Below are positions 31,145 to 49,919 of a DNA stretch of 56,914 bases, in pieces. This stretch comes from Ruminococcaceae bacterium OttesenSCG-928-D13 (lineage in GTDB: Bacteria; Bacillota; Clostridia; Oscillospirales; Ruminococcaceae). Numbering within the stretch: the stretch's first letter is position 1; each line of letters opens with the position of its first letter. Below the pieces are notes generated by a model. It was not told the DNA's origin and ran no database searches. It saw only the letters and a program-made list of their open reading frames with translations. A program made the position numbers and the translations under genes. The stretch lies in the NCBI GenBank assembly GCA_030266915.1, contig JAJDIZ010000002.1, positions 1 to 56,914 on the forward strand, given 5' to 3'.

Positions 31145-31168
31145 GTTGTTCTGTTTTTCAGAAAAAAG

Positions 31169-34822: not shown

Positions 34823-34846
34823 ATCAAAAATTCCTCTTTTCAAATC

Positions 34847-36364
34847 TTACCCGTTGCGCCGGGCCTCTAAAAAAGGCTCGTAATTGCGCCGTGCAACGAT
34901 GGCGGGTTTGCCGTGGATGTTGTCAGTTCCAAACTCGATATATAATTCCAGCATTTCATCTTGGCCGGGGAAATACAGTTCGTAGGACAGATAGACATCG
35001 GGTTCATCATCATAGATGCCGCTACGTGACAGGTCGAAAACTCCGCTCTCAAACGTGGCTTCCATTGCCGCTTTCATCTGTTCATAATTCATGCCGAGGT
35101 CGATTCCAAAAACGCTGTACCTATCACTGTAAATGGTCAGCCAGCGGTATTCATCTTCCGGGCCGTAGGCTCTGGTGTAGTCCAGTTCGGATGCTTCCGG
35201 CGAATCCTCGCCCGTGTGGGGATTGGAGTAAAAAGTGACACCATAATTAAACGTTTCCCACTGCCAGCCAATGTAGGCGGGTTCATCAACATTCGGTAAC
35301 AGCGGCACAGTGTATTCCGGCGCTCCGGCTATCTGTTCCAGCAGGGCCAAATCATCAAACCCGGCCTCTGCCTCATGGGGTAGCGTCATGGTGAAGTCCA
35401 GCGCGGGCCTCTCGCTCAAACGTGGGTCACGCTGGGGTGGCTGGCTCACACTGGATGAAGCCGGGGCTGGGATGCTCTGCACGATGGAGGACGGCGGCGG
35501 TGCTGGTTCCTCGCTGGGCCGGGTTGCAAGGAAAATCCCGGTTCCGATGCCGCCAGCCAAAACAGCGGACGCAACCCCAATGGCGATTTTTGCGGTCAAG
35601 GTCATGCCGGTTGCTGTTGCCGTTCCTGTACCCGCCGCCGCAGTGCCAGTCGTGGCCGCAATGGTGCCTGCCGCCGCCTGCGTGATGCTCTGCAAAATGG
35701 CGCTTTGGGTGGTGAGGCTCGGCGCAGTTGCCAAAGCATCTTTTGCAAAAATGCCAAACAGAGCAATGGCGGAAATGCTGTGCAGACGGACGCCGGATTT
35801 TTCTTCCTCTTTTTCCACTCCGGCCTTAATCTTTTTTCGGGCATAGTTCAGTTGGGATTTGATAGTATTCTCGTTGGTGCCTGTTACCTCGCTTATCTGT
35901 TGGATGGTGAGTTCTTGATAGTAATACATCAAAACCACTGCCCGTTGCTGGTCGGGCAGGCTATCCACAATCCGCAAAATTAGCTGTTTAATGTCCTCCC
36001 GTTCCAGCACGGCGTCAGGCTGGTCGCCGTTGTCGTCTTCCACGTCGGGCAAGGTGCTGTCGGCATCATCACCCACCGGCGCAAAAAGCACTTCGGTTTT
36101 CTTTTTCATTCTATTGGTACACTGGAACGCTGTAATCTGCTGAACCCATTTGAAAAAAGATTCGGGAGTTTCCAACTTACCAAGGTCGCGGTAGGCAATA
36201 AGGAACACATCCTGTGTCACCTCTTGGGCGCTATCTTCATTCCTCAAGATTTTGCGGGCAGTGTAGTATGCGTTGTTGAAACTTTCTGCATAAAGTGCCG
36301 CAAAGGCCTCTTGGTCGCCCTGCTTGGCCTTTATCACCAGTTGCCGCAGTTCTGTTTTTTCCAT
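34847..36364 (-). CDS. ECF-type sigma factor fused to membrane span and extracellular domain
   Basis: Residues about 1-185 form a sigma-70 region 2/region 4 protein (AFAALYAESFNNAYYTARKIL, DVFLIAYRDLGKLETPESFFKWV, then DSLPDQQRAVVLMYYYQELTIQQISEVTG with an HTH). After a Thr/Ala-rich stretch there is one membrane segment (about 258-282, ending GIFLATRP). A Pro/Ser linker follows, then an outside domain of about 200 aa of unknown type (residues 310-505). This joins promoter recognition and a putative surface sensor in one chain, presumably needing release or membrane-tethered action. It heads the operon with the two BIG2 lipoproteins, its probable regulon. Confidence 0.85.
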   Translation of the reverse strand: MEKTELRQLVIKAKQGDQEAFAALYAESFNNAYYTARKILRNEDSAQEVTQDVFLIAYRDLGKLETPESFFKWVQQITAFQCTNRMKKKTEVLFAPVGDDADSTLPDVEDDNGDQPDAVLEREDIKQLILRIVDSLPDQQRAVVLMYYYQELTIQQISEVTGTNENTIKSQLNYARKKIKAGVEKEEEKSGVRLHSISAIALFGIFAKDALATAPSLTTQSAILQSITQAAAGTIAATTGTAAAGTGTATATGMTLTAKIAIGVASAVLAGGIGTGIFLATRPSEEPAPPPSSIVQSIPAPASSSVSQPPQRDPRLSERPALDFTMTLPHEAEAGFDDLALLEQIAGAPEYTVPLLPNVDEPAYIGWQWETFNYGVTFYSNPHTGEDSPEASELDYTRAYGPEDEYRWLTIYSDRYSVFGIDLGMNYEQMKAAMEATFESGVFDLSRSGIYDDEPDVYLSYELYFPGQDEMLELYIEFGTDNIHGKPAIVARRNYEPFLEARRNG

Positions 36365-36406
36365 GATGTTTCCCCTTATATATATAATGAAGTTGGTTGC
36401 TGGCGT

Positions 36407-36583
36407 TCACGGTGGGCGGGGCCACAGGTCGAACAGGGCCAGCAGGGTATTTCGTTCGGCTTCCGGGTTTCTGTGCGCTTCGGCGTCCTCTTGTAGCGCC
36501 GCCATGATTAAGGCGTCCAGTTCGGACAAGTCCGGGCCGTCTCTTATTTGTTCTATGATGCCCACCCCCTTGTGTCTCTGCAT
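36407..36583 (-). CDS. small hypothetical protein upstream of the sigma factor
   Basis: A 58-aa acidic, helical frame (MQRHKGVGIIEQIRDG, then a Leu/Glu-rich helix, ending FDLWPRPP) ends 42 nt before the sigma-factor start on the same strand. The start is uncertain: a longer frame reaches 36670, and the GTG within KGVGII is also possible. No family recognised. It could be an anti-sigma-like or leader protein, but nothing in the sequence proves that. Confidence 0.4.
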   Translation of the reverse strand: MQRHKGVGIIEQIRDGPDLSELDALIMAALQEDAEAHRNPEAERNTLLALFDLWPRPP

Positions 36584-36788
36584 AACGGTATCGCAGAGGG
36601 CAGGGGTGGTTTTATTCCGGGTGAAAAAAGTCTTTTTGTGTGTCCCTCCCGGTTTTTGACGGCTGGACAAATCTACACATTATAGCATAATTTGCCATTC
36701 CGTCAACACCGTTATAACATTTTATCGTCCTATAAAACGGACGTCAACCCTTACAATATGATTATCTCTTGAAAATGAGGTAATCACG

Positions 36789-37037
36789 ATGGCAAAAGGA
36801 ATCCAGCAGGCATTTGTGCGTCAGCTTAAAGTGCAGATGAAAGCCCGTAAAATCACCGCATACAGGCTGGCATACGACGCCGGGGTGCCATACAGTACGG
36901 TAAAAAGTATACTGGACGGCAAGAGCAGAGCAACCAACATTGTCACCATCAAAAAGCTACTGGATGCAATGAAGCTGTCAGTGCCCGACTTCTTCAGTGC
37001 AGACGATTTTGCACAACTGGAACAGGAAATCAAGTGA
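36789..37037 (+). CDS. XRE-family (Cro/CI-type) HTH regulator
   Basis: An 82-aa protein consisting almost entirely of an HTH: QLKVQMKARKITAYRLAYDAGVPYSTVKSILDGKSRATNIVTIKKL, a pattern of Cro/CI-type DNA-binding domains. RBS GAGGTAA lies before the ATG. It is divergent from the sigma/BIG2 operon and may control it or itself. A terminator-like hairpin (CCCTGCC...GGCGGGG, then TTTT) follows at about 37043-37065. Confidence 0.88.
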   Translation: MAKGIQQAFVRQLKVQMKARKITAYRLAYDAGVPYSTVKSILDGKSRATNIVTIKKLLDAMKLSVPDFFSADDFAQLEQEIK

Positions 37038-37233
37038 CGGCCCTGCCAAACTGGCGGGGTTTTGCTTTGTGTACAAACACTGTGCAAAGCTGTGTACAAA
37101 AGCACAAAGCCGAAATATTACGATAATACAAGCATAATCACCACCTCCTTTTTCTTTTACACGTTGTTTGCACGGAGTTCTGTACAAAAGGTTTTGTTTG
37201 TTAATATTCAAGATACCTGGGGCCTTGCGGCCC

Positions 37234-37890
37234 CTATTTTTGTTGCCAAACCATTTGCTCGTTGCAATCCCCGCACATGATGTTGACCATCTTTGTTGCT
37301 CGCACCGATGTACCGCAACATGGGCAAACATACTTCCGGCTGTTGCTGGTGGTTCTACCTGTTGGCGGCAGTGTTCCAGTTCCGGCGCTCCCGGCTCCGG
37401 CTCCACCGCGAGGCACAAAAGACCATTCACGACGTGCCATGTCGATGTCAGTCCAAGCCTGTTCGATGATAAAATCAAGCAATCCCTCTGTCGGCTCCGT
37501 AATGCTCCAGCCAATCCGCTTGTCGTAGCTGATGGAGAGGTCGCGCTTTTCGGCCTCGACCTTGAAGCGTTTGTTATGATACTGCCCCGCGCGCGAAACA
37601 TCTTTAATATCGTTAGCCAGACAAAAAAGGTGTACACACTCATGTAAAAGGGTGGCCGTGACTTCCTCAATGGGCCTGTCCAGCGTCCCGGCCCCAATGT
37701 TCAATTCGTGGCGGCTCTCTTGGCCTTTTCGCCAGCTTTTACCCACCGTCACATGACCATAGGCGCGGGGTGTGCTCTGTATGGTAATGATGGGTTCTTC
37801 CAACTGACCTTCAAAGTATTTTTCATTGAGCGCCCGAAACATCTTTTCCAAATACCCGGCTGTCCTCGATGTCTTAACGGTCTTTTTCAT
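37234..37890 (-). CDS. SprT-like zinc metallopeptidase domain protein
   Basis: This 218-aa protein has the SprT-type zinc motif HECVHLFC at about 82-89, in the context TATLLHECVHL...AGQYHNKRFK, and a C-terminal zinc ribbon (CPCC about 190, CGDC about 207). SprT-like proteins include the DNA-protein crosslink protease Spartan, and related small forms are common on clostridial mobile elements. I start at ATG 37890, where GGAGG is 8 nt upstream; an ATG at 37905 would overlap the RBS. The 5' untranslated region holds a GCCCCAA/TTGGGGC hairpin. Confidence 0.85.
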   Translation of the reverse strand: MKKTVKTSRTAGYLEKMFRALNEKYFEGQLEEPIITIQSTPRAYGHVTVGKSWRKGQESRHELNIGAGTLDRPIEEVTATLLHECVHLFCLANDIKDVSRAGQYHNKRFKVEAEKRDLSISYDKRIGWSITEPTEGLLDFIIEQAWTDIDMARREWSFVPRGGAGAGSAGTGTLPPTGRTTSNSRKYVCPCCGTSVRATKMVNIMCGDCNEQMVWQQK

Positions 37891-38290
37891 GTTTCGTACC
37901 TCCATAATTTTTTGTTGGCCCCAACTTGGGGCTTAAAAACCGTTTCCGGCTGTAATTAACAAAAAAGCCGCTGTCCGGGGTGGTCAAGAGCACCGTGGAA
38001 TAAGGCCCTACCTTATGCCGCGAAAGGCTCTTTACCGCCGCAGAGGACGGCGGGTTATTATATCCGTCAGCCGAAACGGTATCACAAAATGCCCTGCCAG
38101 CAGGCAGGGCTACAACGCACTTGTTCTTGACCTTTGGCCCTTAACGCTTTACCCGGACTATGATTTATCATATCCGGGTAAAGCGTCTAAAGGGTCGCTG
38201 GGTGTATATATCGGGGCAGATGGTTACTGGGCGTGTCCGAAAAAAGCCGTCACAGGTGTCGGCTCCGGGTGATACAATCACCCATCCGAA
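37891..38290. other. non-coding stretch with hairpins
   Basis: This 400-nt intergenic stretch holds no convincing gene. An open frame at 38015-38272 has low-complexity arginine-rich content and no family, and overlaps two strong palindromes: GCCCTGCC/GGCAGGGC around 38091-38110 and the larger one at 38144-38186. It separates the SprT-like gene from the structured-RNA unit. Confidence 0.6.
38144..38186. repeat. 43-bp near-perfect palindrome
   Basis: ACGCTTTACCCGGA and TCCGGGTAAAGCGT form a perfect 14-bp inverted repeat. The 15-nt centre itself contains TATGA/TCATA, so nearly the whole 43 bp is self-complementary. There is no T-run on either side, which argues against a terminator. Possible roles are a recombinase or replication-protein site. 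Confidence 0.7.
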
Positions 38291-38374
38291 TTGACATACT
38301 TTGCAATTTATGGTATAGTTTCGAACGTTGCTACGAAAATTAGTTGTTGCACACCTCTTTTAGATATGGTATAA
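38291..38374 (+). promoter_or_regulatory. tandem sigma-A promoters for the structured RNA
   Basis: P1 is TTGACA (38291-38296), a 17-nt spacer and TATAGT (38314-38319). P2 is TTGCAC (38346-38351), a 17-nt spacer and TATAAT (38369-38374). Both are near consensus. P2 would start transcription at about 38381, just before the first paired element of the RNA. Confidence 0.85.
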
Positions 38375-38380
38375 TTAATA

Positions 38381-38763
38381 TGTACAAACCCACATTGCCA
38401 AAACAACACCCGTTACCGGGCTGAAAGCATCAGATGGCACGCCGTGGCATTAAAACCATCTGGTGACGGTGGGTATGGACTGCACAGGATTGAATCTTCA
38501 TATTCAAAACTGCAACCAAGCTGGGAAGGGTCAGCGAAAAATCCGTGAATGGCCTTAACCTCTGGCAGAGAATGTGTAAGTGGAGCCGTGGTTATCCCAT
38601 GCAGTCCTCGCGCGAAAGCGCCGTCAGCAACGAGACGTAAAAACCCGTTGTTGGCCGAGAGGCCTTTAAGGAATTATTTAAAACAAAAAAACTAAACACC
38701 GAAAATCCACCACAGACAATACCACCCAATTTTGAACGGGGATGGTTTTAGGTCTGTTTTTTT
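38381..38763 (+). ncRNA. highly structured non-coding RNA upstream of tyrosine recombinase
   Basis: No ORF explains this transcribed stretch, but it folds densely by eye. A closing helix joins GCC-AACAAC (38397-38407) with GTTGTTGGC (38647-38655). Hairpins are CCCG/CGGG (38409-38420), CAGATGG/CCATCTG (38431-38462), TTGAAT/ATTCAA (38490-38507), and CGCGAAAGCG inside CTCG/CGAG (38607-38634). A long-range helix pairs GGACTGCA (38477-38484) with TGCAGTCC (38600-38607). A terminator (38712-38763) ends the unit. It is driven by two strong promoters. Its size and place before an integrase gene recall large ornate clostridial RNAs such as the raiA motif, but I cannot confirm a family. Confidence 0.75.
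38712..38763 (+). terminator. intrinsic terminator between structured RNA and recombinase gene
   Basis: ACAGAC/GTCTGT and CCACCC/GGGGATGG form a long, imperfect hairpin followed by seven Ts, ending 22 nt before the recombinase ATG. Recombinase expression from the RNA promoters would require read-through. Confidence 0.75.
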
Positions 38764-38785
38764 ATTGCACGGGGGGTGATAAAAA

Positions 38786-39655
38786 ATGAGAAAACGAGGG
38801 TCTTTACAATTCGAGGCGAATCAGGCGCTTGAAAATATGAAAGCGTTTGGACGAAGCCGTGATGCTGACAAGAAAGCCGGTGTAACCAAAGACAAAATTT
38901 ATACATATAAAACCATGCGCACTTACCAACACCAAGCTGGACGTTTCATCGAGTGGGTTCGTGGTCAGGATGAGAATAAGAAAACGAAGACGCTGGAACA
39001 GTCCCGCGAATGGGTAGACGCATATATCCAGCATATGAAAGATAGAGGCGACAAGGCCGCCAGTCAGGCAACTGCGGCGGCGAGCCTCGCCAAGTTGTTC
39101 CAATGCTCCAAGAGCGATTTTGCGCCGACTGACCCGGTACGCAGGGTTGATATTGAGCGTTCCCGCAACGAGGTTCCCAGCGACAACCGTTTCAGCGAGG
39201 AAAAAAACCGTGACCTTGTGGACGTGTGCAAAGCAACTGGCCTCCGACGCTGTGAGGTGTCGGCTTTGCGGCCCGATTGGTTGCGTGGGGATGCACAGGC
39301 TGGGTTTCGCCTGTCAATCCCGCCCGGTATCGCCAAGGGCGGACGACCACGCGAGTTACCAATAAGAGGTGAAACGGCGGCGAAAGCGGTTGAGGTTATA
39401 CGCCGCACGTTCGCCGGAAATCGCGTTTTCCCACGCGTCCATACACACGCTGACATTCACGCCTACCGCGCCGAGTACGCCAACAGCTACTACAGGGAGT
39501 TGGCGCGTGATGTGCGTACACTCCACCGTTCCGAGCGATACGATTGTCGAAAAGACAAGGCCGGTATCCATTATGACCGTGCGGCAATGAAGGCGGTCAG
39601 CGAGGCTCTGGGACACACGCGAGTCTCGGTAATCGCCAGCAATTATTTGATGTGA
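38786..39655 (+). CDS. tyrosine recombinase/integrase
   Basis: A 289-aa protein with an N-terminal SAM-like core-binding region (about 35-105) and a C-terminal catalytic domain. Catalytic residues can be read: Arg154 in TGLRRCEVSAL, a Lys in the KGGRPRELPI beta-hairpin, HYDR at 262-265, His277 in LGHTRVS, and the presumed nucleophile Tyr287 three residues from the end. It would catalyse site-specific recombination, for example excision or resolution of the island or of a cointegrate. The RBS region GGGGGGTG precedes the ATG. It sits mid-island rather than at an end, and is immediately downstream of the structured RNA. Confidence 0.9.
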   Translation: MRKRGSLQFEANQALENMKAFGRSRDADKKAGVTKDKIYTYKTMRTYQHQAGRFIEWVRGQDENKKTKTLEQSREWVDAYIQHMKDRGDKAASQATAAASLAKLFQCSKSDFAPTDPVRRVDIERSRNEVPSDNRFSEEKNRDLVDVCKATGLRRCEVSALRPDWLRGDAQAGFRLSIPPGIAKGGRPRELPIRGETAAKAVEVIRRTFAGNRVFPRVHTHADIHAYRAEYANSYYRELARDVRTLHRSERYDCRKDKAGIHYDRAAMKAVSEALGHTRVSVIASNYLM

Positions 39656-39669
39656 GGAAGGTGAAGCCA

Positions 39670-40098
39670 GTGGGTGAACAGGAGTATATCAAACGGCTTG
39701 AAGCCGAGGTAAGCGCCATGAGGGCAACCATCACCGGCAGAGCCAACCGTGACCGCGATTTGCGGCCCCGTGACCAGCATTGTGGATACCGGGTAATTTC
39801 CAAAAAAGAGGGTGAGTGGGTGGCGATTCGCGGCGGTGCTGTACAAGGCCGGAAACCGGCCTACATTGTTGAGCTTGAGACGCCGTACACCTCCACCATG
39901 CGGATTTATCCCCTGCGGGAGAGCATCAAACAGGCGGTGTGTGAGTTGGCCGCAAACAGCGATTTTGAAGGGCCGGAGCCGCCCAAGCTGTTTGACTTAA
40001 AAATGTTCGTTCAGCGCGGGCCTGCTGATTTTTGGGCAGTGACGTGCTTCTTCAATAAAGAGTGGACGGAAATATCACAGGAGGGAGGTGAAAAATGA
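39670..40098 (+). CDS. hypothetical protein downstream of recombinase
   Basis: A protein of about 143 aa starting with GTG 39670 (RBS AGGAAGG); an ATG at 39652 overlapping the recombinase stop is also in frame. The first 25 residues look like a short coiled coil (EQEYIKRLEAEVSAMRATI). The rest is a mixed alpha/beta region with no motif I recognise (GYRVISKKEGEWVAIRGG, DLKMFVQRGPADFWAVTCFF). It follows the recombinase by 14 nt and overlaps the next gene by 4 nt, so the three form one unit. Confidence 0.75.
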   Translation: MGEQEYIKRLEAEVSAMRATITGRANRDRDLRPRDQHCGYRVISKKEGEWVAIRGGAVQGRKPAYIVELETPYTSTMRIYPLRESIKQAVCELAANSDFEGPEPPKLFDLKMFVQRGPADFWAVTCFFNKEWTEISQEGGEK

Positions 40099-40496
40099 TG
40101 AGGGATGAGTTTTATTCGTGGCTCTATGCAGGCTCCAATATCAAGCTCGGTAGTGCAATGGATGTGCTTATAAGGAATATGAGCACGGACGAACTGGTGT
40201 GCATGTTGCCGCGTATCACGACGGCACCTCCGATGTCGCGTTGCAGTGGGGTTGTGGCAAGCTTTCACACGCCGGACACGCACAGTAAGGCCGAAGTTAC
40301 TCGCGCCGCACGGGCTTTGTTTGAGGCGCTGGAGAACGAGCCGAACGTGTACGACGGTTGGAACGATGTTGCTGACCATGTTTCTTCTAAATGGGCGCTC
40401 ATTGAAAATCGTGGCTATGATGTGGATGCGACGAATCGCGCCATTCGGATGATGGCTGATGAAATCAAAGCGGCGTTTGAAACCGAGATTGCGTAG
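40095..40496 (+). CDS. hypothetical protein, last gene of recombinase unit
   Basis: A 133-aa soluble protein (MMRDEFYSWLYAGSNIKLG) with predicted helices and no recognised motif. The overlapping ATGA with the preceding gene and RBS GGAGGTG show translational coupling. A terminator follows 12 nt after the stop codon. Because it is locked in one operon with the recombinase and the 143-aa protein, it may be an accessory factor, but there is no sequence evidence for any biochemical role. Confidence 0.7.
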   Translation: MMRDEFYSWLYAGSNIKLGSAMDVLIRNMSTDELVCMLPRITTAPPMSRCSGVVASFHTPDTHSKAEVTRAARALFEALENEPNVYDGWNDVADHVSSKWALIENRGYDVDATNRAIRMMADEIKAAFETEIA

Positions 40497-40507
40497 GCGA
40501 GCGCAAC

Positions 40508-40545
40508 AAAAAAGGCGACCTCCGTTTGCAATGGGGGTCGCCTTT
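40508..40545 (+). terminator. intrinsic terminator of the recombinase operon
   Basis: A-run, AAAGGCGACC and GGTCGCCTTT form a 10-bp perfect stem with a GC/GU-rich loop, followed by CATTT; it is usable in both directions. Confidence 0.8.
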
Positions 40546-40742
40546 CATTTGGGCTTTGGTGCTGGTGCCGAGTGTGCGTAGCACATTTCAACGGCTCCTT
40601 TCTTTTCTGCAAGGGCTTTCTGCAAAGGACTTTATGCGTGTGGCTCCTAATGGAATGGGCCGTGTTTGTTCAATTCTACGGGTAGGTCAAGGACGGTGAT
40701 GTTCAAAAAACAAATTCCTCACCCGTAGCCCTTCCCGATACT

Positions 40743-40880
40743 CTTGATACCTTGATACCTTGATACGTTGATACTTCTTTTAAAAAAATTATCAATAGTA
40801 TCAAGTGGTAGTGTTTGACTTGATACCCGTAAAACGGCTTGAAATCGGTATATTGGGGGGTTCGGTATCAAGTATCAAGG
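40743..40880. repeat. iteron-like 8-bp repeats (CTTGATAC)
   Basis: Four head-to-tail units of (C/G)TTGATAC occupy 40743-40774. A further unit is at 40819-40826, and inverted units GTATCAAG are at 40798, 40865 and 40872. The cluster spans the end of the helicase-like gene and the stretch beyond it. The rest of the 40546-40742 gap holds nothing recognisable. Tandem short repeats beside a replication-type ATPase are the usual look of a replication origin or initiator-binding site. Confidence 0.65.
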
Positions 40881-42033
40881 TATCAGCGACACCAGCGTTT
40901 TCGTCAACGTTGGAGTTCTCTGAAAAATTGGCCTCACCCGAATAATCGTTCAACGTGATTTGCTCGGCATCTTCATCGTCTACATCGACAGGCGTTGAAG
41001 TAGGAGAAACAAGGCGACTGAAACGATACGTCCTGTCTTTCGTGCTTGTGGGGCGGTCACATCGAACGTGGTCGCGTTCCAGCAATAAGGCGCTGAATTT
41101 CTTAAACCGCTTACCAACCTCATTGCTGACCAGCATCTCCCCGGTCACGTTCATCACATCCGCCATAAAGTCCGACGGTTTTGTTTCAAAGCCGCTCGGC
41201 TCCTGTGCCAGCCTGTGAAGGATGGTTCTTACAACCGGGTCTTGGCTGTACGCCATCACACGCTGGTGCCGTTCCAGTTCTTCCCGTGAGCCGCGATACT
41301 TCCAAATACAATCCTCGCCGTCAAACTCGACCACAAAAGACGTTTCTTCGGTTTCGCGGGAGGTGTAATAAAGGGTTGCAATTCTGTCCTCGGAATTGCC
41401 CCGAGAATGGCGTTGAAGTACCATTGCGAAGTCTACGCCACCAAAGATGCCCTGCCCGCCCAAGATGCTATCAAAAGGGTTTTCCGGGTTCTTCTCTTGC
41501 CTGTTATGGTGAACAAGCAAAACACAAATATTGTGCTTGTCGGCGATTGCTTTAAGCGCCGCCATTTCGGTTGTATCCATCCCATAGAAATTCTTGTTAC
41601 CGTAGTTGCGGTCAGGTCGAATGCGTTGGAAAACATCAATAATTACAATAGTGGTTTCGGGAAAATCGGCCATGTGGTTGTCAATCTCGGCTTCCAACCC
41701 AGCCCCAAGAATACTTGCCTCGGTACGCATTCGCAAACGCTCATTCGGAGCCACTCCCAGCGCGGTAGAAATTTTACGCACCCTGTCCTGCAAACGCCTC
41801 TCGCCGTCCTCCAGCGCCATATAAAGCACGTCGCCTTTGTGGGTCGAGTGTTCAAGAAAAGGGATACCTTCGGTGATACAGATGCCCATTTCCATCATCA
41901 TCATGCTTTTGCCAGCTTTCGGGTCGGCACTGATGATACCCAAGCCTTGATGCACAAGTCCCTCAACCACCCACAGCAGAGGCGGCAGTGCCTTTTGGTC
42001 AAGTTCTTTCGCGTTTTGTGTCGTAATCTTCAA
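40801..42033 (-). CDS. RepA-like RecA-fold ATPase (replicative helicase type)
   Basis: This 410-aa protein has a Walker A motif (SADPKAGKS at about 40-48) preceded by GLVHQGLGIISA, and a Walker B-like IVIIDVF. LLVHHNRQ and GGQGIFGGVDFAMVLQR follow, the pattern of hexameric RepA/DnaB-related ATPases on plasmids and phages. The C-terminal about 110 aa form a winged-helix-like region plus an acidic tail that spans the iterons. I use TTG 42033 because AAAGGAGG lies 8 nt upstream; the longer ATG (42066) version contains that RBS. It follows the Toprim-like gene. Confidence 0.82.
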   Translation of the reverse strand: MKITTQNAKELDQKALPPLLWVVEGLVHQGLGIISADPKAGKSMMMMEMGICITEGIPFLEHSTHKGDVLYMALEDGERRLQDRVRKISTALGVAPNERLRMRTEASILGAGLEAEIDNHMADFPETTIVIIDVFQRIRPDRNYGNKNFYGMDTTEMAALKAIADKHNICVLLVHHNRQEKNPENPFDSILGGQGIFGGVDFAMVLQRHSRGNSEDRIATLYYTSRETEETSFVVEFDGEDCIWKYRGSREELERHQRVMAYSQDPVVRTILHRLAQEPSGFETKPSDFMADVMNVTGEMLVSNEVGKRFKKFSALLLERDHVRCDRPTSTKDRTYRFSRLVSPTSTPVDVDDEDAEQITLNDYSGEANFSENSNVDENAGVADTLILDTEPPNIPISSRFTGIKSNTTT

Positions 42034-42140
42034 AATAATGTCCTCCTTTATAATTTTTTGTTTCATCTATTGAAACACACCCCCGGTTTGTCCGGGTTGG
42101 TGTGGAAAAAATTTCCAAGTTTGGTACATTGCCGAGGCTG

Positions 42141-42521
42141 TTATTCGCCTACAGCGGCGGCATAGATGTCGCCAATGAGGTCGCTCTCGCCGGTGCCACA
42201 GAAGGTGGAAATGAGGCAATCGACACCCAAGCCCTCATCTTTGGGGATACAGAGCGTGAAATCCGTTACCCGCATGGTCTTGATGCGCTCATTAGGGATG
42301 CCCTGCTTACGAAGCCGGACAATGGTCTCGTCGGCCCACGATTCCCCTTCCTCGCCCAGCGCGGGAAAAATAATCACCCGTTCGCTGACCTCAATATCAT
42401 GGAAAAAGGGTTGAACGTCGCCACGGATGCGGTGAATGGCTTTAAACCCCGAACGGACAAGCGCAATGGCATCAGTGAGCGTTGGTGTAAGAAAAACGAC
42501 GTTAGAAATAGACAAAGGCAT
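42141..42521 (-). CDS. Toprim-like domain protein
   Basis: A 126-aa protein with the strand-helix pattern of a small Toprim-like fold (SNVVFLTPTLTDAIALVRSGF, RVIIFPALGEEGESWADETIVRLRKQGI, then LGVDCLISTF). This suggests a stand-alone primase-type domain as found next to RepA-like helicases on plasmids and phages. The acidic ExxxDxD set is not cleanly visible, so activity is uncertain. The RBS GGAGAG lies within the end of the 343-aa gene 4 nt upstream, indicating coupling. Confidence 0.55.
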   Translation of the reverse strand: MPLSISNVVFLTPTLTDAIALVRSGFKAIHRIRGDVQPFFHDIEVSERVIIFPALGEEGESWADETIVRLRKQGIPNERIKTMRVTDFTLCIPKDEGLGVDCLISTFCGTGESDLIGDIYAAAVGE

Positions 42522-42524
42522 ATG

Positions 42525-43556
42525 TTAATTCTCTCCATCTTCGATAACATTCTGCCAACGAACGTTCGCAGATGGCATTGCGCTCTCTATTTTTTGGACA
42601 ATACTTCTTCCCCACGCCTCTTCGCTTTTTCCGAAAGAAAAAACAAAGAAGCCTGGATTTTTAAGTTTTTCCAGCGGTGGAATAGAAGTATAGAAGGTTA
42701 TATTCATCTTTTTTTCCGCCGCTGTTTCCTGTAACATATCCGCCATTTCTTTTGTTTTCACAATACCGACCATGTCAATCATTTTTTTTCCGTCAAGCAT
42801 GATTTTGCCATAGTAGTCTGTCTGCATCGGGGATTCTGTACTGAAAATGAGATTTTCATAATAAGAGAAATCCTCACACCCTTCCATGATATAAGCCATT
42901 TCTTCGACTACGTCTTCATCCTCTGGAAAGATATTGTCGCTATTGGTGAAAAGGCCCATGAAAGCCCAGCCAGCAGTGCGGCATCCACCCAAAATTTCCA
43001 CCTCGTAATATGTGCTTTTGAGTGCGCTCTCATCCTGCTTTACAAATGTGCGGTATTCATCCAAAGTATGACCCCGAAAATACCTCCCAGTGTCCTCATG
43101 GTTGTAAAAATACGCTTCAACAAATAGTATTCCGTCTCTAAACATTATTCTGCTGATACTCATGAAGTGGTGGTACACACTGGTGAGTATGTTGCACTCC
43201 ACTTCGATAGCCTTTTTCAAATTCCTTATATGGACTTTACCAGTGTGAGCAACTGGAATGGACATCACGACACTTCCAAACTCTTTATCCATGCTGAAAA
43301 AAACATCCTTTTTACAAACGGCATCTTTACAAACGGCATTGTGTTTCTCGAACTCATCAAAGGAATACATGTTCTGTTTGACCTTCCTTTTTCCCAGCTT
43401 TCTAACAGATGCGTTATACAGCATCTGCAAATCCATATAGGTAAGCATAAAAAAGGGAGCATCGTCCTCATTGAGCTTGCGAGGGGCGACAGGCGTGGAC
43501 TTCCCACTGTTGATTTTCTCGTAGTATTCTTCGATTTTTTTTAATTTCGTGTTCAT
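42525..43556 (-). CDS. hypothetical protein of the replication-like operon
   Basis: A 343-aa protein, AT-rich in codon use compared with the backbone, soluble, with many Asp/Glu/Tyr/Met residues. Two paralogous-looking Cys residues occur (HNAVCKDAVCKKD, residues about 75-84). I do not recognise a family. Its position between the 46-aa protein and the Toprim-like gene, with RBS GGAGG and tight spacing, places it in the early/replication operon driven from the 43838 promoter. An initiator or accessory replication role is only an inference from that position. Confidence 0.75.
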   Translation of the reverse strand: MNTKLKKIEEYYEKINSGKSTPVAPRKLNEDDAPFFMLTYMDLQMLYNASVRKLGKRKVKQNMYSFDEFEKHNAVCKDAVCKKDVFFSMDKEFGSVVMSIPVAHTGKVHIRNLKKAIEVECNILTSVYHHFMSISRIMFRDGILFVEAYFYNHEDTGRYFRGHTLDEYRTFVKQDESALKSTYYEVEILGGCRTAGWAFMGLFTNSDNIFPEDEDVVEEMAYIMEGCEDFSYYENLIFSTESPMQTDYYGKIMLDGKKMIDMVGIVKTKEMADMLQETAAEKKMNITFYTSIPPLEKLKNPGFFVFSFGKSEEAWGRSIVQKIESAMPSANVRWQNVIEDGEN

Positions 43557-43576
43557 TCTATATCCTCCATTTAATT

Positions 43577-43717
43577 TTATATTTGACTAAAAACGTAAAA
43601 AACATCCCTCTTATCGCTTGGGATGATGGCGTTCACATCATCCGGGGGTGCCCGTCCTCGGTATCTACCGAGATAGTTAGCACCTCTGTTAAGCGTAAGA
43701 AAGATGTATACAAACAT
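43577..43717 (-). CDS. 46-aa small protein, first gene of the replication-like operon
   Basis: A 46-codon ORF (MFVYIFLTLNRGANYLGRYR, then Pro/Asp-rich, ending VFSQI) has an excellent RBS, AAAGGAGG, 6 nt before its ATG. It lies between the strong minus-strand promoter and the 343-aa gene, whose own RBS begins just after its stop codon. The short hydrophobic N-terminus followed by Arg/Gly is not a known family. It could be a leader peptide or a small regulator. Confidence 0.6.
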   Translation of the reverse strand: MFVYIFLTLNRGANYLGRYRGRAPPDDVNAIIPSDKRDVFYVFSQI

Positions 43718-43809
43718 AATAAACCTCCTTTTATTTTTTCGTTATCACGCCCTTTCTGGTCGGCCGAAATGGTTTTATGTGAATGACGGGTGGGTCAACT
43801 GATAGGTGG

Positions 43810-43900
43810 ATTATACCATGATTCTTTGAATATGTCAAGCAAATATTGACGATATAATTTATTCGTCAATATTTATGTATTGACGCTTTCGTGTTGACGA
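43810..43900. promoter_or_regulatory. consensus promoter and repressor operators between divergent operons
   Basis: On the minus strand TTGACA (43838-43833), a 17-nt spacer and TATAAT (43815-43810) form a perfect sigma-A promoter for the replication-like operon. Next to it, AAATATTGACGA (43841-43852) and TCGTCAATATTT (43863-43874) make a perfect 12-bp inverted repeat. Two more TTGACG half-sites follow (43880, 43894). They lie upstream of the XRE gene and are likely its operators. Confidence 0.85.
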
Positions 43901-43941
43901 CAATATATGAGCGTGATATGATTGGTTTTGGAGGTGCGAAT

Positions 43942-44682
43942 ATGAAAGAGCAAGATTTAGGCGAAATAAGCATTTTTGGGCAACGGTTACGTGCATTGCG
44001 AAACTCTTGGAATCCTCCGATGTCCTCACAGGATTTAGCTACGGAACTTGGTTATAAATCTGATGCAACTGTCAGAAACTGGGAGAATCCAAAACGGCTT
44101 GACAAAAACAGCGAGGATGAAAAAAAATGGATAATGCCTCCCATTGATAAAATCGCACAAATAGCCGACATCTTTTCGTGCAGTGTAGATTATCTGTTGG
44201 GAAGAACGGATGTCATAAATGAAGAGCGATTAGAGGGTATGAGTGAAGATTTAAGTGAACTACATGCGACCCTATCCCGCTACGGCCTATATGGTGATAA
44301 GTTCTTTAACCTCATTCAAAAATATCTTAAAACAATGACAACGGCTATCGGTGACACGCCATTTGGCAAAAAAAACCTATTCTTCAACTATTTTGAGATG
44401 TTGACCATGATGGACGAAGCGACCCGCATATCGCTTCTGTTGCCTAAAAAAAATGATGTCAATGAATCATCCAATATTGTAGATGTAAGCAAAGTTGTCG
44501 TTGGCACAGCAAACGCAACACAACGCATTCACGGGTTCCATAAAAAAGCTCAAGACTCTTTTGCCCAATACTTCAAGATACTTTATGATATGACCGAGGA
44601 TGCCTATTTAGATATTGCCAAAAGTGATAGTGAGAAAAATGTCATCGCCGCAATAGTGAAAGCTCATACAGACCCGGTCTAA
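43942..44682 (+). CDS. XRE-family repressor with long C-terminal domain
   Basis: A 246-aa protein with an N-terminal Cro/CI-type HTH (FGQRLRALRNSWNPPMSSQDLATELGYKSDATVRNWE, to about residue 85 with FSCSVDYLLGRTD) and a helical C-terminal region of about 150 aa of unknown type. ATG 43942 is set by GGAGG 7 nt upstream; the frame is open further upstream through the operator repeats. It faces the replication-like operon across consensus promoter and operator sequences, the arrangement of a phage-type or element-type master repressor. Confidence 0.85.
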   Translation: MKEQDLGEISIFGQRLRALRNSWNPPMSSQDLATELGYKSDATVRNWENPKRLDKNSEDEKKWIMPPIDKIAQIADIFSCSVDYLLGRTDVINEERLEGMSEDLSELHATLSRYGLYGDKFFNLIQKYLKTMTTAIGDTPFGKKNLFFNYFEMLTMMDEATRISLLLPKKNDVNESSNIVDVSKVVVGTANATQRIHGFHKKAQDSFAQYFKILYDMTEDAYLDIAKSDSEKNVIAAIVKAHTDPV

Positions 44683-44706
44683 TATGTACCAGCCAGTATA
44701 AAGAGA

Positions 44707-44738
44707 AAAGGCCCTGCCATCATCGGCAGAGCCTTTTT
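44707..44738. terminator. bidirectional terminator between XRE repressor and tniQ
   Basis: AAAAGGC-CTGCC and GGCAG-GCCTTTTT form a hairpin with an A-run before and T-run after. It lies between the convergent repressor gene and the transposition operon. Confidence 0.8.
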
Positions 44739-44751
44739 GTTTTGGAAACCA

Positions 44752-45783
44752 TCACGATACCAACCCATAAATCTTTCCCCAGCGACGCACCGTTCCGGGG
44801 TCGATGCCCAACCTCCGTGCAATAGCCTTTTGGGGTTCTCCCTTTTCCAGCCCCTTGCGAATTTCTGCGATTCCGTCAACCTTCTTGGGTTTTGAAAATA
44901 GACTTTCAAAACCGATACCCATAAAATGTGCTACCTGTAAGATGAAGCGTGGGGCCGGGTTCTTGGCGTAACCAAAAGTTACAGTTAGGCGAAGCTGGCT
45001 CACATCATCATCAGGCACAAAATCATCATAGAACACCCGCATAGCCTCTGCCATTTCCCGTGTTTTCGTCCATCGTCCTGTCACTGGTCGCCAACCGTGC
45101 CGTTTTAAGCCCTCGTCCAGCACGGCGGTGTGTATGCCGCCATCGGCTTTCAAGTCCAGCGGCGAAGCCAAACAGGCACCATACAGCGCCGATAAATCGC
45201 GCTCTTGCTGGCTCGCCTCTCCCTGCCGGACGGCTGACAGTTCCATCCCCAGCAGGGCCGGGCGAAAAGTCACCTCGCAGTCGGTAAACGGCACACCCGT
45301 ATCACACAGCCAGCACCCGTGCGTTGTGCAGATGCGAAGGTCTACAAGCTGGTGTGCCCGGTGCCAGTAGGGTTCGCCATACTGGGCAATGTCATCATGA
45401 TAGCACTCCGGGCAGTAGCGGAAAAAGGGGTGCCGCTCACCGCTTATGGTGTTCATGCCTACCAGCATTACGGCCCTGCCGCCACCGTGGGTTAGTTCAT
45501 GTACAACATTTTGCTTGCGTTCGGCGCTCCAAAACCGGGCGTAGTAGGGTAGTAGTGTGTGCTGGACCAGTATATCTACAGGTTTCATATAAGGCGCATG
45601 CAGATTGCCCATGACAACCGCCAGTTCGGTTGCCAGTTCCAGTGACACCCTGCCCTTGTACCGGCCAAACAAATCACGGACGCTTTGGGTGGCACAATAA
45701 TTCCCGCTCCGAAGGTGATACCGGGAAAGCACCGAAAACCACAGTTCATCCGGGTAAGGTGTAGGCAGAAAAGACAGGCTCAT
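44752..45783 (-). CDS. tniQ: TniQ/TnsD family target-selector protein
   Basis: This 343-aa protein opens with the TniQ signature FLPTPYPDELWFSVLSRYHLRSG. It carries the zinc-binding motif YCPECYHDDIAQYGEPYWHRAHQL...CTTHGCWLC and ends in a homeodomain-like HTH (EPQKAIARRLGIDPGTVRRWG). TniQ/TnsD proteins choose the target site for Tn7-like elements, binding DNA directly or through guide complexes. It is shorter than classical TnsD (about 500 aa). Its start overlaps the tnsC stop in an ATGA. No Cas or guide-RNA locus is nearby, so direct DNA recognition is expected. Confidence 0.9.
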   Translation of the reverse strand: MSLSFLPTPYPDELWFSVLSRYHLRSGNYCATQSVRDLFGRYKGRVSLELATELAVVMGNLHAPYMKPVDILVQHTLLPYYARFWSAERKQNVVHELTHGGGRAVMLVGMNTISGERHPFFRYCPECYHDDIAQYGEPYWHRAHQLVDLRICTTHGCWLCDTGVPFTDCEVTFRPALLGMELSAVRQGEASQQERDLSALYGACLASPLDLKADGGIHTAVLDEGLKRHGWRPVTGRWTKTREMAEAMRVFYDDFVPDDDVSQLRLTVTFGYAKNPAPRFILQVAHFMGIGFESLFSKPKKVDGIAEIRKGLEKGEPQKAIARRLGIDPGTVRRWGKIYGLVS

Positions 45784-47081
45784 AATATGGCAACCTCCGT
45801 AACGTATTCGGCGAGAGCATCCACCACTGGCTTACCCTGCTTTTTGGCATCTACGACGATAGCCCGAAGGTCGGCCCTGCCGGTGGTTTGGTGTGGTTCC
45901 AAGCTTTGAGTATTAACATTCAAATCACCCGTACCCGGTTTTGGTGCTGTTCTCTGGCGCTTGGGGGTATCGTCCAGCGAAGCGAGAAAGCCGTCAACCA
46001 TCTGTAAACTGCCTTTGTAGGCCCGTTCCAGCGTGTCTATTGTTACGGCTTCCGTGCCGTCCATGATGGCCCGTTGCTGGGCATGGTAAATCAGCTTCAC
46101 CATAATATCGGGCACACCCTGCGTTTTGCGATAAATCCAGTTCGCAACCTCCGGGGTGAGGTCGGCAGAGTTCCGGGTGTACTGGTAGCGCCATAAGGAT
46201 TTTAACAAAAGCGAAAACTCGTCATTGTTCCCCAGCCGGTCATACACAAGGCCGGTGGCTCGGCGGGCACTCCGAAATTCAGCTTGCAGGGTGCCCAGCA
46301 CTTGCGGGGTGCCAACCATGCAGACGGACAAATGCGCGGAATTTATTAGCTGAACAATAAAATTTAATAGCCGGATTCCACCGCCGTTGCGTATGTGGGC
46401 AATGTTCTGTATCTCGTCCACCACCAAAAGGCCCAAGTTGATACTCTTGCTGATTTGGCTTATCTGGCTCACCATCATATCAGCGGATAGCCTGTTGGTC
46501 ACGGCTCGCTGGTGATGCGCTGTACCACTGGCACCATCTATCTGTAAGAGAATGTCAAGGCAAAGGGCTTTGATTGAAGCATCGGAGGGGGTCTGTACAA
46601 CAATGTAGGGTATCTGCTTACACACAAGCGGTTGCCCGTTGTAGGCTTCGTGCTCAATGACAGGTGGGAACAGGCCAAGCACCTGTTGAAGTGCCCGCGA
46701 TTTTCCCAGCCCGCTAATGCCGATAACGGAAAAGCTATTGCCACCACCTGTCGCGGCAGTGATGCGGCGGTTTTGAAGGTCTGTATAATTGGTGTGATAC
46801 TGCTGAACATCGGCCACGGTCAGTTTTTGGGCAAAGCTGTGTTGCATGGCGGCGCAGACTTGATAGTACAACTGTACGGTCATTTCAAGCGGCTGGTATA
46901 CTTCATATAACGTCCCCAACATCTGCAAGCGCACTTCTGCTGGTAACTGGCGGCTGGATTCGTCATAAGGCGGAAAGTGACCGAGAGCATCAACAAGGGC
47001 CTGCCCGCCCAGCGTAGGCGGTAGGGCCTCTATGAACGGGTTGCCGGGGTATGCCGGGTTTGGCGTATATACTGCTTTCAT
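45780..47081 (-). CDS. tnsC: TnsC-like AAA+ ATPase
   Basis: A 433-aa AAA+ protein with Walker A GISGLGKS (121-128), Walker B LLVVDEIQN (Asp222-Glu223), sensor-like VGTPQ and a C-terminal tail containing repeated Lys/Arg. TnsC forms ATP-dependent filaments on DNA and links target selection (TniQ) to the transposase (TnsB). It overlaps tnsB by 4 nt and tniQ by 4 nt, so all four genes make one translationally coupled operon. A truncated Tn5053-type TniB would be shorter; the length here fits TnsC. Confidence 0.92.
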   Translation of the reverse strand: MKAVYTPNPAYPGNPFIEALPPTLGGQALVDALGHFPPYDESSRQLPAEVRLQMLGTLYEVYQPLEMTVQLYYQVCAAMQHSFAQKLTVADVQQYHTNYTDLQNRRITAATGGGNSFSVIGISGLGKSRALQQVLGLFPPVIEHEAYNGQPLVCKQIPYIVVQTPSDASIKALCLDILLQIDGASGTAHHQRAVTNRLSADMMVSQISQISKSINLGLLVVDEIQNIAHIRNGGGIRLLNFIVQLINSAHLSVCMVGTPQVLGTLQAEFRSARRATGLVYDRLGNNDEFSLLLKSLWRYQYTRNSADLTPEVANWIYRKTQGVPDIMVKLIYHAQQRAIMDGTEAVTIDTLERAYKGSLQMVDGFLASLDDTPKRQRTAPKPGTGDLNVNTQSLEPHQTTGRADLRAIVVDAKKQGKPVVDALAEYVTEVAIL

Positions 47082-48934
47082 GCTCCATTCCCCCTTAAAA
47101 TCTCAAACACACTCGGCTCTTGGCGCTGTTCTGCGGCCCGGTTCGCCCGGATGCCCGTTGATATGGTCTTGACTGTCTGCGGCTCTACAGGTGTAGCCTG
47201 TGCCGCAATATCCTCAATGTCTGCAATCAAGGACACCCGCGCTTGCAACTCCTGTTGTTGATATTGAGATTTCAAGTTTTTTTCATCCTTCCGTAGCTGG
47301 GTCAGTTCGTCTAATGTCTTGCCCCTGTATTGGCTCTGAACGACTTCAAACGGCGTGTACACCATGCTCTCATACAGCCACACGGTGCCTATATCATCAG
47401 GATTGTACGCCACCGTCACCTTCTCTTTTCCCCTCATCCCTGCGGTCACAAACCGCTTGTTGTAGGCGCTGTTATTATAATGGATGCCGTTCACTTCAAG
47501 GCCCTTTTGGGTAAACCCGCCCTGTATGCGAGGCAACAAAGCCAACGTGAAGCGTCCAGCATCCACCGTGGGCAAGGCTCCCTCCGGCTGGGCCATACCA
47601 TGCAACCACAGTTTTGAAGCAACAGGCGGCACATCAGCCGCAATCTGGCTTTCCGTGCGCGGGTAGTTCTGCATTATGTGTTCAGAATTGTAATAAAGAA
47701 CGCACCGTATGACGATTGCCGTAAACTGCTCCAAATCCAAAGTGCTATCCTTGCGGTAATCATGCCCGCCGCGCTCTTGGAAGTCTGGTTCAATAACACC
47801 TTTCCCCTTCAAGTGCGGCTTGTAGGAAGTCTGCAACAGGTCAAACAGCTTTTCCACCGGGCCTTTGAGGTCAGGCCGGTAAGCAGGCAAGTTTACAATC
47901 TCTATCCCATATTCACTACACAGGTTTTCCAACACGTCACCGATAAACTCTTTGCCCCGGTCTGTGAGGATGCGCCGGGGTAGGTGGTGAGCGGGCCATT
48001 GCTCCGGGTCTATTTCGATTCCGTGTTGCTGGCAATACTCGGCCTTGTGCATGATGGTGTTCGCCAAAAGCATCCGCAAGCCGTGTTTGCCGCCCTCCAA
48101 GCCCACATACAAGCCAGTTATCATGTTGGTATGAGCATCCACCATCGTATAGATGATGGGGCGACCTATCACCTTGCGAGAAAATCGGCTGACAATATAG
48201 ATGTCGGCTATCGTTGCGTCCGTCATAAAAGTGCCGATTTCAGCGGCGTATTCCCTAACGCTCCCGGTAAAGGCTCTGTGGTTCCTCTGATAAGCCTTTA
48301 GCCCCTTGCGACTGATAGCTTCGTTCACGGGGTCACGGGTGGAGTAGAAAAAGTAGCGGAATTGGTGAAAAGATGGGTACGGCTCCTGTAGGGTGCCGTG
48401 GGCATCGGTATATTTTTCTTTGAGCATCAACGTGTAGGCATTTTTCAAGGTGTGTTGCAGAGGGGAATAGTAAAAACGGTTGAGCGCCCAGCGTATGTTT
48501 TTCTGGTCAGCGGTCAGCGGCGGTGGCTCCTTCTGCTGGCGCTCGGAAGGTAACAGGGCATTGCGGCTCTGCGCCACCCAATAGCGCCAGAGATAGCTTT
48601 TGACGGTCTGCATCCCTACACCCGCATAAACGGATACATCATGGATTATTCGGTTTCGATGGGCCTTGTTTGTGATGCACTCCACCGATAGTAATGGCTC
48701 TATCAGCGAATACCGTTTGTCGCGAGTTTCCTTCTGTCTGGGTTCCAATTCTTCATCCGTATAGGGAATACGGTATTCATTGGTGCTGACAGGCTCCATA
48801 TCATCCAGGATGTCATTATCCAACATGAACGGCATCCGACACCGCGAACAATCCACCACCCAGCTTGCAGGGTCAGACAGCACCAAAACCCGCACCGTCA
48901 GCCCAGCATCCCGTAAAATGTCATTCTCTCTCAT
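47078..48934 (-). CDS. tnsB: TnsB-like DDE transposase
   Basis: A transposase of about 618 aa of the Mu/TnsB/retroviral-integrase superfamily. An N-terminal CSRC motif (about 29) and HTH domains precede the catalytic core. The DDE residues can be read as Asp239 (MTDATIADIYIVSRF), Asp325 (LTDRGKEFIGD) and Glu361 (KGPVEKLFDLLQ). It is followed by a beta-barrel and a C-terminal tail thought to contact TnsC. It binds the transposon ends and performs 3' cleavage and strand transfer. I start at ATG 48934, since AAGGAGG is 7 nt upstream; a TTG at 48940 is also open. Confidence 0.95.
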   Translation of the reverse strand: MRENDILRDAGLTVRVLVLSDPASWVVDCSRCRMPFMLDNDILDDMEPVSTNEYRIPYTDEELEPRQKETRDKRYSLIEPLLSVECITNKAHRNRIIHDVSVYAGVGMQTVKSYLWRYWVAQSRNALLPSERQQKEPPPLTADQKNIRWALNRFYYSPLQHTLKNAYTLMLKEKYTDAHGTLQEPYPSFHQFRYFFYSTRDPVNEAISRKGLKAYQRNHRAFTGSVREYAAEIGTFMTDATIADIYIVSRFSRKVIGRPIIYTMVDAHTNMITGLYVGLEGGKHGLRMLLANTIMHKAEYCQQHGIEIDPEQWPAHHLPRRILTDRGKEFIGDVLENLCSEYGIEIVNLPAYRPDLKGPVEKLFDLLQTSYKPHLKGKGVIEPDFQERGGHDYRKDSTLDLEQFTAIVIRCVLYYNSEHIMQNYPRTESQIAADVPPVASKLWLHGMAQPEGALPTVDAGRFTLALLPRIQGGFTQKGLEVNGIHYNNSAYNKRFVTAGMRGKEKVTVAYNPDDIGTVWLYESMVYTPFEVVQSQYRGKTLDELTQLRKDEKNLKSQYQQQELQARVSLIADIEDIAAQATPVEPQTVKTISTGIRANRAAEQRQEPSVFEILRGNGA

Positions 48935-48936
48935 GG

Positions 48937-49314
48937 TCAAGCCTCCTTTTCAATGACGATGCCCCAATCGGTCACACCTTGTTGGTACCAATATTCCAGC
49001 GAGAGTTGTAACAGGTCAATCACGCTCTGACGGGGTAAGATATGCCGAAAAACACACTCGCGTACTGCCATAGTCCCATCTGTCTTTTTTATAAGAAAGT
49101 CGCTCATGTGCGAAGTTGGTGGCGCTGGCAGGTCTGACGGCAACGCGGTTTTTTTGAAATCAAGTGGTATGTTCATGGAAAACTCGGACACGTTTTCATC
49201 GGTGTTAAGCTGGCGGGCGTATGCCTCCATCAGCTTATCGTGACATCTGCATATCTGCTGGTTCTTATCGAGGCTGATTTTTGCGCAACGGTTTTTTTGG
49301 CTCGTTCTCCGCAT
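48937..49314 (-). CDS. tnsA: TnsA-like endonuclease domain protein, active site altered
   Basis: A 125-aa protein matching the TnsA N-terminal nuclease core: DKLMEAYARQLNTDENVSEF (catalytic-Glu helix), MSDFLIKKTDGTMAVREC (Asp plus third-motif strand) and LEYWYQQGVTDWGIVIEKE (the C-terminal YW...IVTE signature). It lacks the TnsA C-terminal HTH domain (full TnsA is about 270 aa). Where active TnsA has (E/Q)xK, this has REC, so the catalytic lysine is apparently replaced. TnsA cuts the 5' ends to allow cut-and-paste movement; without it Tn7-type elements make cointegrates. It is the first gene of the operon (RBS AGGAAGGAAA). Confidence 0.8.
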   Translation of the reverse strand: MRRTSQKNRCAKISLDKNQQICRCHDKLMEAYARQLNTDENVSEFSMNIPLDFKKTALPSDLPAPPTSHMSDFLIKKTDGTMAVRECVFRHILPRQSVIDLLQLSLEYWYQQGVTDWGIVIEKEA

Positions 49315-49328
49315 GGTGTTTCCTTCCT

Positions 49329-49429
49329 TTCAGTCCGGGGTCAATCCGGGTTCAGTCCGGCTTTTTCGGGATAAAAGGGCGTTTTGGGGGTTCAATCCGG
49401 GGTCAATCCGGGTTCAGTCCGGCTTTTTC
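49329..49429. repeat. two blocks of three 11-bp repeats near the island's right end
   Basis: Units of (T/G)TCA(A/G)TCCGG(G/C) occur three in a row at 49329-49361 and again at 49391-49423, each block followed by TTTTTC. The blocks are 62 bp apart. They lie between tnsA and the right 385-bp repeat, where a Tn7-like element carries its TnsB-binding sites. A CCCGG-ATAG-CCGGG hairpin and CCGGACTGACTG follow at 49490-49518. The remaining sequence of this gap (49315-49528) holds no gene. Confidence 0.75.
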
Positions 49430-49528
49430 AAAAATATCCTCACCTCTATTCTGACGAATTAACAGCCCTTTTTTCGCATATATTAAAAACCCGGATAGCC
49501 GGGATGCCGGACTGACTGAAAACCACTA

Positions 49529-49913: not shown

Positions 49914-49919
49914 AAAAGC

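Follow-up and report, generated by a model that had tools for sequence, protein, structure and literature searches.

An island bordered by two mini-transposon copies

The window, a stretch of 56,914 nucleotides analysed at its full length, is contig C112 of the assembly of Ruminococcaceae bacterium OttesenSCG-928-D13 (2.37 Mb, 229 contigs, 67.6% complete). Next to its rplL gene lies an 18.7-kb island (Table 1), which is bordered on each side by one copy of a 385-bp mini-transposon (hereafter E) and which carries, in the region between the two copies (the backbone), Tn7-like transposition genes, a replication-like module and several other genes. The GC content of the backbone is 51%, as compared to 61-64% in the flanks.

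Table 1. Features of the island and their positions in the window
Feature	Position	Strand	Remarks
Island	31169-49913		18.7 kb; 31164-49918 with the target duplications
Target-site duplication AAAAG, left copy	31164-31168		probability 0.001 for a chance 5-mer match, given the local composition
E copy 1, 385-bp mini-transposon	31169-31553	+	
Protein with repeated Ig-like (Big_2-type) segments	32172-33578	-	named by eye from the translation
Sigma-factor-like protein	34847-36364	-	named by eye; a sigma-like gene also occurs in L046
82-amino-acid XRE-type regulator	36789-37037	+	L046 homolog, 7e-36
SprT-like protein	37234-37905	-	PF10263
Xer-like tyrosine recombinase	38786-39655	+	R, HxxR, H and Y residues by eye; L046 homolog, 2e-47
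First box set (first half of the putative origin)	40743-40774		four tandem TTGATAC, 8-bp period
TTGATAC copies	40744, 40752, 40760, 40768, 40820		
AT-rich spacer TTCTTTTAAAAAAATTATCAATA	40775-40797		23-mer with 2 G+C; lowest GC in 39.5-43.9 kb
Second box set	40798-40878		four boxes, mixed orientation; overlaps the ATPase 3' end
GTATCAA (inverted form) copies	40798, 40865, 40872		
RepA/DnaB-like (AAA_25) ATPase, putative initiator helicase	40801-42066	-	421 amino acids
Toprim-like protein (putative), degenerate	42141-42521	-	126 amino acids
Orphan 343-amino-acid protein	42525-43556	-	no reliable family match
46-amino-acid open reading frame	43577-43717	-	open reading frame only
Replication-operon promoter	43838-43810	-	perfect sigma-70 consensus, TTGACA-17 bp-TATAAT
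Near-perfect palindrome of 34 bp, putative operator	43841-43874		just upstream of the promoter, between the operon and the divergent XRE gene
XRE-type repressor-like gene	43891-44682	+	family searches
TniQ/TnsD-like target selector	44752-45783	-	PF06527, 6e-19
TnsC-like ATPase	45780-47081	-	family searches
TnsB-like DDE transposase	47078-48940	-	family searches
Short TnsA-like protein, single domain	48937-49314	-	profile alignment to Tn7 TnsA
E copy 2	49529-49913	+	same as copy 1; adjoins rplL
Target-site duplication AAAAG, right copy	49914-49918		rplL stop codon a few bases on

The two E copies are in direct orientation, identical at 385 of 385 positions and found nowhere else in the genome assembly. 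The AAAAG duplication starts exactly where the identity of the E copies stops, and the inner flanks of E differ from each other and are not duplicated. Each end of E has TTATCAAAA-type boxes at 21-29 and 43-51 bp from the end, in inverted orientation. Judging from this symmetry, the boxes are putative transposase sites and E is a complete mini-transposon with both transposon ends, so that it appears to combine the inverted ends, the repeated transposase-type sites and the 5-bp duplication that are characteristic of Tn7-like transposons. The tns genes lie between the outermost ends of the island, but outside E, which packs both ends into 385 bp. Removing the island and one AAAAG from the sequence leaves a terminator-rplL junction that resembles that of the congener G041, in which E is absent after rplL.

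Similarly to Tn7-like transposons, the island is predicted to encode a TnsB-type DDE transposase, a TnsC and a TniQ/TnsD protein. Its TnsA is unusual: a profile built from six members of the family had Tn7 TnsA as its sole match in the PDB (E=0.0011), and in the alignment of the two the position of D114 has the conserved D, that of Q130 an invariant E and that of K132 a V, and E63 is not conserved. We take E63, D114 and K132 to be functional residues of Tn7 TnsA. In the 89 TnsA sequences compared, the K132 position is occupied by V, I, C, T, L or A, and in none by K. The intact set of nuclease residues expected of a cut-and-paste element is consequently not found in the island TnsA, for which a failure to cut the 5' strands is a reasonable prediction. 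These altered residues do not set the island apart from the wider Tn7-like group, because tnsA is wholly absent from many Tn7-like elements (PMC8649781).

Between tnsA and E copy 2, at 49329-49429, TCAATCCGG/TCAGTCCGG repeats form two 39-bp blocks that are almost the same and are possibly involved in the regulation of the tns operon. Direct repeats occur in the tnsA-E interval of several relatives too.

The replication-like module and its putative origin

A sequence-only reading of this DNA had proposed a replication module at 40743-43838. These coordinates are correct for the module, and leave out the enclosing element (31164-49918) and its E borders. The ATPase, described there as RepA-like, matches Pfam AAA_25 (3e-24; DnaB_C, 9e-4, is below the cut-off) as well as the DnaB-like and primase/helicase families of PHROG, and its top PDB match by sequence is RSF1010 RepA (weak, E=0.012). 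It appears to have the RecA-fold AAA_25/DnaB_C-type domain of RepA/DnaB-like replicative helicases, and its kin, which occur in elements with integrase, XRE or mobilisation genes, form a helicase-type family. A direct scan of the genome-contig collection returned no relatives of the ATPase.

The other parts of the module named in the same reading, namely the 343-amino-acid protein of unknown kind, the 46-amino-acid protein and the consensus promoter, are present as described. The 343-amino-acid protein is an orphan in family searches, with a single weak match among 299 family genomes and no relatives in a direct scan of the viral-contig collection; its AlphaFold2 model (predicted local distance difference test, pLDDT, of 38) is uninformative and not usable. 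The Toprim-like protein is present too, and its label is putative: a family search gave no match, the AlphaFold2 model is of moderate quality (pLDDT 66) and Foldseek found nothing significant for it (the non-significant matches include RecR and 1t6t). Besides the appearance of its motifs and the model, the label gains support from the nearest ATPase homologs outside the source genome (L049 and L050), because they have a weakly scoring Toprim domain fused ahead of AAA_25. Control of the replication operon by the divergently encoded XRE protein is plausible.

A 135-bp stretch at the stop codon of the ATPase gene holds eight exact TTGATAC/GTATCAA boxes, and TTGATAC has only one further copy in the 57 kb, at 46438. 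The largest 7-mer cluster of the module thus has eight members, as compared to at most four in 200 shuffles of the 4.4-kb region, and the iterons reported to overlap the end of the ATPase gene hold up well. Similar clusters, in which the same 7-mer is present 4-10 times no more than about 310 bp from the ATPase stop codon, occur at 18 of 53 ATPase loci (partly non-independent, and including that of the window). The box motif differs among loci (ACCGTTG, AGTGGTG, CCGTCAC, CGTCACG and others), and two oppositely oriented box sets are seen in most of the box-bearing loci printed.

In the origins of phage-inducible chromosomal islands (PICI) and Staphylococcus aureus pathogenicity islands (SaPI), an AT-rich region lies between two iteron sets, just 3' of rep (PMC6092414, PMC7581432). 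The module appears to have this same layout, with box sets placed at the helicase gene's 3' end, which suggests that two-box-set origins at this position are a common design extending beyond the PICI helicases.

A second mobile element of the same genome, L046 (contig C168, 1-11515), has a similar gene set, namely a homologous ATPase, a Toprim-like neighbour, an Xer-like recombinase, an 82-amino-acid XRE regulator and a sigma/Ig-like gene, together with a large serine recombinase where the island has the tns genes. Since L046 keeps the backbone genes with a serine recombinase instead of tns, the backbone seems to exchange its integration module. The boxes of L046 (CTGATAC) are looser, and the cluster test was not significant for them.

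The E-backbone-E structure recurs in relatives

Among 80 relatives of TnsB, mostly from Clostridia, about 25 loci have an E directly upstream of tnsA. In this family E is about 250 bp long and sits between the target gene and tnsA; its terminal inverted repeats are identical at up to 22 of 22 positions, and the inner ones are conserved across the approximately 25 loci. Where enough DNA could be read, a second, direct E borders the far end. Seven further islands are E-backbone-E, six of them with target duplications of 4-5 bp. The E copies are 99.2% identical in G301 (26.4-kb unit), 94% in G303 (10.2 kb), 90% in G314 (17.3 kb), 100% in G315 (11.9 kb) and about 87%, being degenerate, in G324, for which no outer duplication could be defined. 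The outer duplications are TGGT (4 bp) in G301, ATTTT/ATTTC (4/5) in G303, TTAAA (5/5) in G314 and ATAAA (5/5) in G315. Two isolates have the backbone on a contig by itself (35,044 and 40,358 bp) with E halves at its ends, and chromosomal contigs carry the complementary E halves, with the duplications TCAG (4 bp) and ACGCT (5 bp).

Contig ends also gather at E: of 91 tnsB loci, 25 break off 500-1000 bp upstream of tnsB, at E, as compared to four at 1000-1250 bp and none at 1250-1750 bp. In the group with TGTCG-type E, the backbone sequence that adjoins E is conserved (...TACTA-E-TRGTGATAT), and E therefore looks like a fixed part of a circle. Other islands hold plasmid- or phage-type genes (an actin-like ParM relative, YqaJ, a Rad52-like protein, a serine resolvase, helicases), which fits their reading as circular replicons.

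Insertions occur directly after the stop codons of conserved genes: rplL in the window, genes identified by eye as ppdK- and pfkA-like in L044 and L062, and others sharing a ...GAGTGGGAATAA 3' end, which suggests that there are several TniQ target classes. In G301, two tandem elements (L177/L178) have a common border, in the order E, TGGT, second E, an arrangement that suggests repeated insertion at one site. One isolate has several E-type elements (G331, contigs C70, C79 and C99), and an E remnant adjoins the full E border in G331 C99 and in G330 C337. The former contig was considered as a candidate for a solo E and rejected, its E being the far-end copy of another element.

A proposed integrated circular replicon

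From the parts found at the locus, the E-backbone-E structure, the target duplication, the altered TnsA active-site positions and the recurrence in relatives, we infer that the island is probably a circular replicon of about 18.36 kb with one E, which was joined to the chromosome after rplL by replicative Tn7-like transposition, in the form of a cointegrate. We propose that the circle would carry the replication module, tnsA-tnsB-tnsC-tniQ and a single E just upstream of tnsA. The ATPase would act as the initiator helicase on an origin with two box sets, centred on the AT-rich stretch, at the 3' end of its own gene; the Toprim-like protein would be its degenerate partner, and the XRE protein and the operator would provide control. 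TnsB would recognise the two outward-facing ends of E, and TniQ and TnsC would pick the site directly after a housekeeping stop codon, here that of rplL. Because TnsA seems unable to cut the 5' strands, the transposition of E out of the circle would be replicative and would fuse the circle to the chromosome, with one E at each border within a 5-bp target duplication. Recombination between the two E copies, through RecA or the Xer-like recombinase, which is a candidate for this excision or resolution, would free the circle again. The junction predicted for the window's own circle is ...GAAAACCACTA-E-TGGTAACACTGG....

The following observations weigh against this proposal. First, tnsA has been kept, with two invariant acidic residues, so that TnsA may retain a role, and its catalytic lysine may be displaced and not lost. 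Second, no further E turned up within some 36-40 kb in five relatives, which could be larger or partial elements or elements of another kind. Third, the E copies of G303 are 94.4% alike, as compared to 95.2% for one of them and an E from another genome, so that neither copy is the nearest relative of the other. Fourth, the family does not always have the ATPase: the remaining islands that were read hold other genes, and no ATPase homolog was seen in them. Fifth, the window is one contig of an assembly that is 67.6% complete. Sixth, an exact-pattern search for circle junctions in IMG/VR, the loci collected and 391 genomes of the class, which covered the TGTCG-type E and would miss the E type of the window, found none.

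This last search bears on an earlier suggestion, that the island can exist as an autonomous circle. E-backbone-E is the expected product of circle integration by replicative transposition and supports this suggestion, but neither a circle nor a junction was found. Whole contigs had no end-to-end overlap indicative of a circle, and the phage collection contains no member of the TnsB family. The plasmid records give no free form either, because their best TnsB matches are only distant relatives (27-32% identity). The two single-unit backbone contigs of 35.0 and 40.4 kb were considered as free circles and rejected: both are integrated, because chromosomal contigs carry the complementary E halves.

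It is rather unlikely that the island is instead a composite Tn7-like transposon, moved by its outermost ends, each of which happens to be a mini-transposon, with the replication genes as passive cargo. Such a transposon would likewise have outer ends with a 5-bp duplication, tnsA is present, and the E copies of G303, G314 and G324 are 6-13% apart. However, no force would then keep the inner ends of E intact or its copies alike, whereas the inner terminal inverted repeats are conserved in about 25 loci and identity between the copies is 99-100% in the window, G301 and G315; in addition, TnsA does not have the lysine needed for 5' cutting. Under circle integration intact inner ends are expected, because they are used, and this reading seems a better fit for the conserved backbone flanks of E, the intact inner ends and the alike E copies. 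As for the module itself, the earlier view that it is a plasmid or satellite replicon rather than ordinary cargo draws support from the helicase-type family of the ATPase and the recurring box arrays, which make ordinary cargo unlikely.

Compatible with the proposed origin of the borders, and similarly doubtful, is the possibility that the replication module has stopped working, being a degenerate remnant taken up from a satellite or mobilisable element. The orphan status of the 343-amino-acid protein, the degenerate look of the Toprim motifs and the lack of ATPase homologs in the other islands read would agree with it, but none of the reading frames is interrupted, the promoter matches the consensus perfectly and eight exact boxes are retained, and L046 has kept comparable genes together with weaker TGATAC boxes of its own.

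Quite improbable is a Campbell-type event, in which an E-bearing plasmid would have recombined through RecA with an E resident beside rplL, with no joining driven by Tns. It yields an equal E-backbone-E structure with an outer duplication, but requires a resident E, whereas E occurs nowhere else in the genome and the congener has none after rplL, and the structure recurs at different genes in the other islands. Finally, the joining of a separate plasmid to the chromosome at a shared repeat during assembly, as 385-bp repeats can mislead short-read assembly in a draft of 229 contigs, is very hard to reconcile with the outer 5-bp duplication, the resemblance of the modelled empty site to the rplL terminator region of the congener and the presence of the same structure in isolate genomes.

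Returning to the integrated-circle proposal, we lean, with less assurance, towards its extension to a widespread clostridial replicon family. In this family a mini-transposon (about 250-400 bp) would serve as a transposable attachment site, nuclease-altered Tn7-like machinery would insert the whole circle, as a stable cointegrate, beside chosen housekeeping genes, and recombination between the E copies would free the circle; Tn7-type transposition would thus be the integration system of plasmid- or satellite-like elements. If true, Tn7-like transposons and self-replicating integrative elements, which are usually kept apart, are joined, and the cointegrate, usually a passing intermediate, is the normal integrated state. 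A practical rule follows for delimiting such islands, namely a full mini-transposon repeated at both borders. A literature search, limited to open papers, found no matching description, which is weak evidence of novelty.

Comparison with known systems

The island resembles Tn7 and Tn7-like transposons (Benler et al. 2021, PMC8649781) in its tnsA-tnsB-tnsC-tniQ order, its DDE transposase, its insertion after a conserved gene and its 5-bp duplication. It differs from Tn7 in that its TnsA consists of a single short domain lacking the lysine of Tn7, and in that its outward ends both lie within the 385-bp mini-transposon, outside the tns genes, at both borders. With the replicative Tn7 relatives of the Tn5053/Tn402 type (PMC8649781) it shares a predicted cointegrate route and a nearby resolvase-type recombinase; the cointegrate is a resolved intermediate in these elements, whereas in the island it appears to be the stable integrated state.

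The likeness to PICI/SaPI (PMC6092414, PMC7581432) lies in the primase-like and initiator helicase genes, the divergent repressor-type control and, immediately 3' of the helicase gene, an AT-rich stretch with a box set on either side. Unlike in PICI/SaPI, the helicase of the island is of the AAA_25 (RepA/DnaB-like) type and integration would rely on Tns and not on a phage integrase. Since no relationship of the ATPase to SaPI Rep was found, this resemblance is a likeness, not a membership. Among the island proteins scanned, we recognised no phage-type integration integrase and no capsid-interference, terS or packaging genes.

RSF1010 RepA belongs to the same hexameric-helicase-type ATPase family, with the weak sequence match given above; the two are distant homologs, and the island has no recognised partners of the RepB'/RepC kind. 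The TnGBS elements have a circular form and replication genes and, to our knowledge, mini-transposon repeats of the E type are not part of their design. These integrative and conjugative elements, the DDE transposases of which are related to Mutator-like transposases (PMC3942029), are similar to the island in being integrative elements that use a DDE transposase, though one of a different family.

Other features of the window

The region preceding the Xer-like recombinase gene (37960-38780) is hairpin-rich, with a strong palindrome at 38138-38194, and an Rfam search of it returned no known RNA. The fold z-score is -1.7 for 38360-38740 and -2.7 for the corresponding stretch of L046. The chromosomal flanks of the island contain a T-box leader (13147-13392) and a ribosomal L10 leader (50908-51061).

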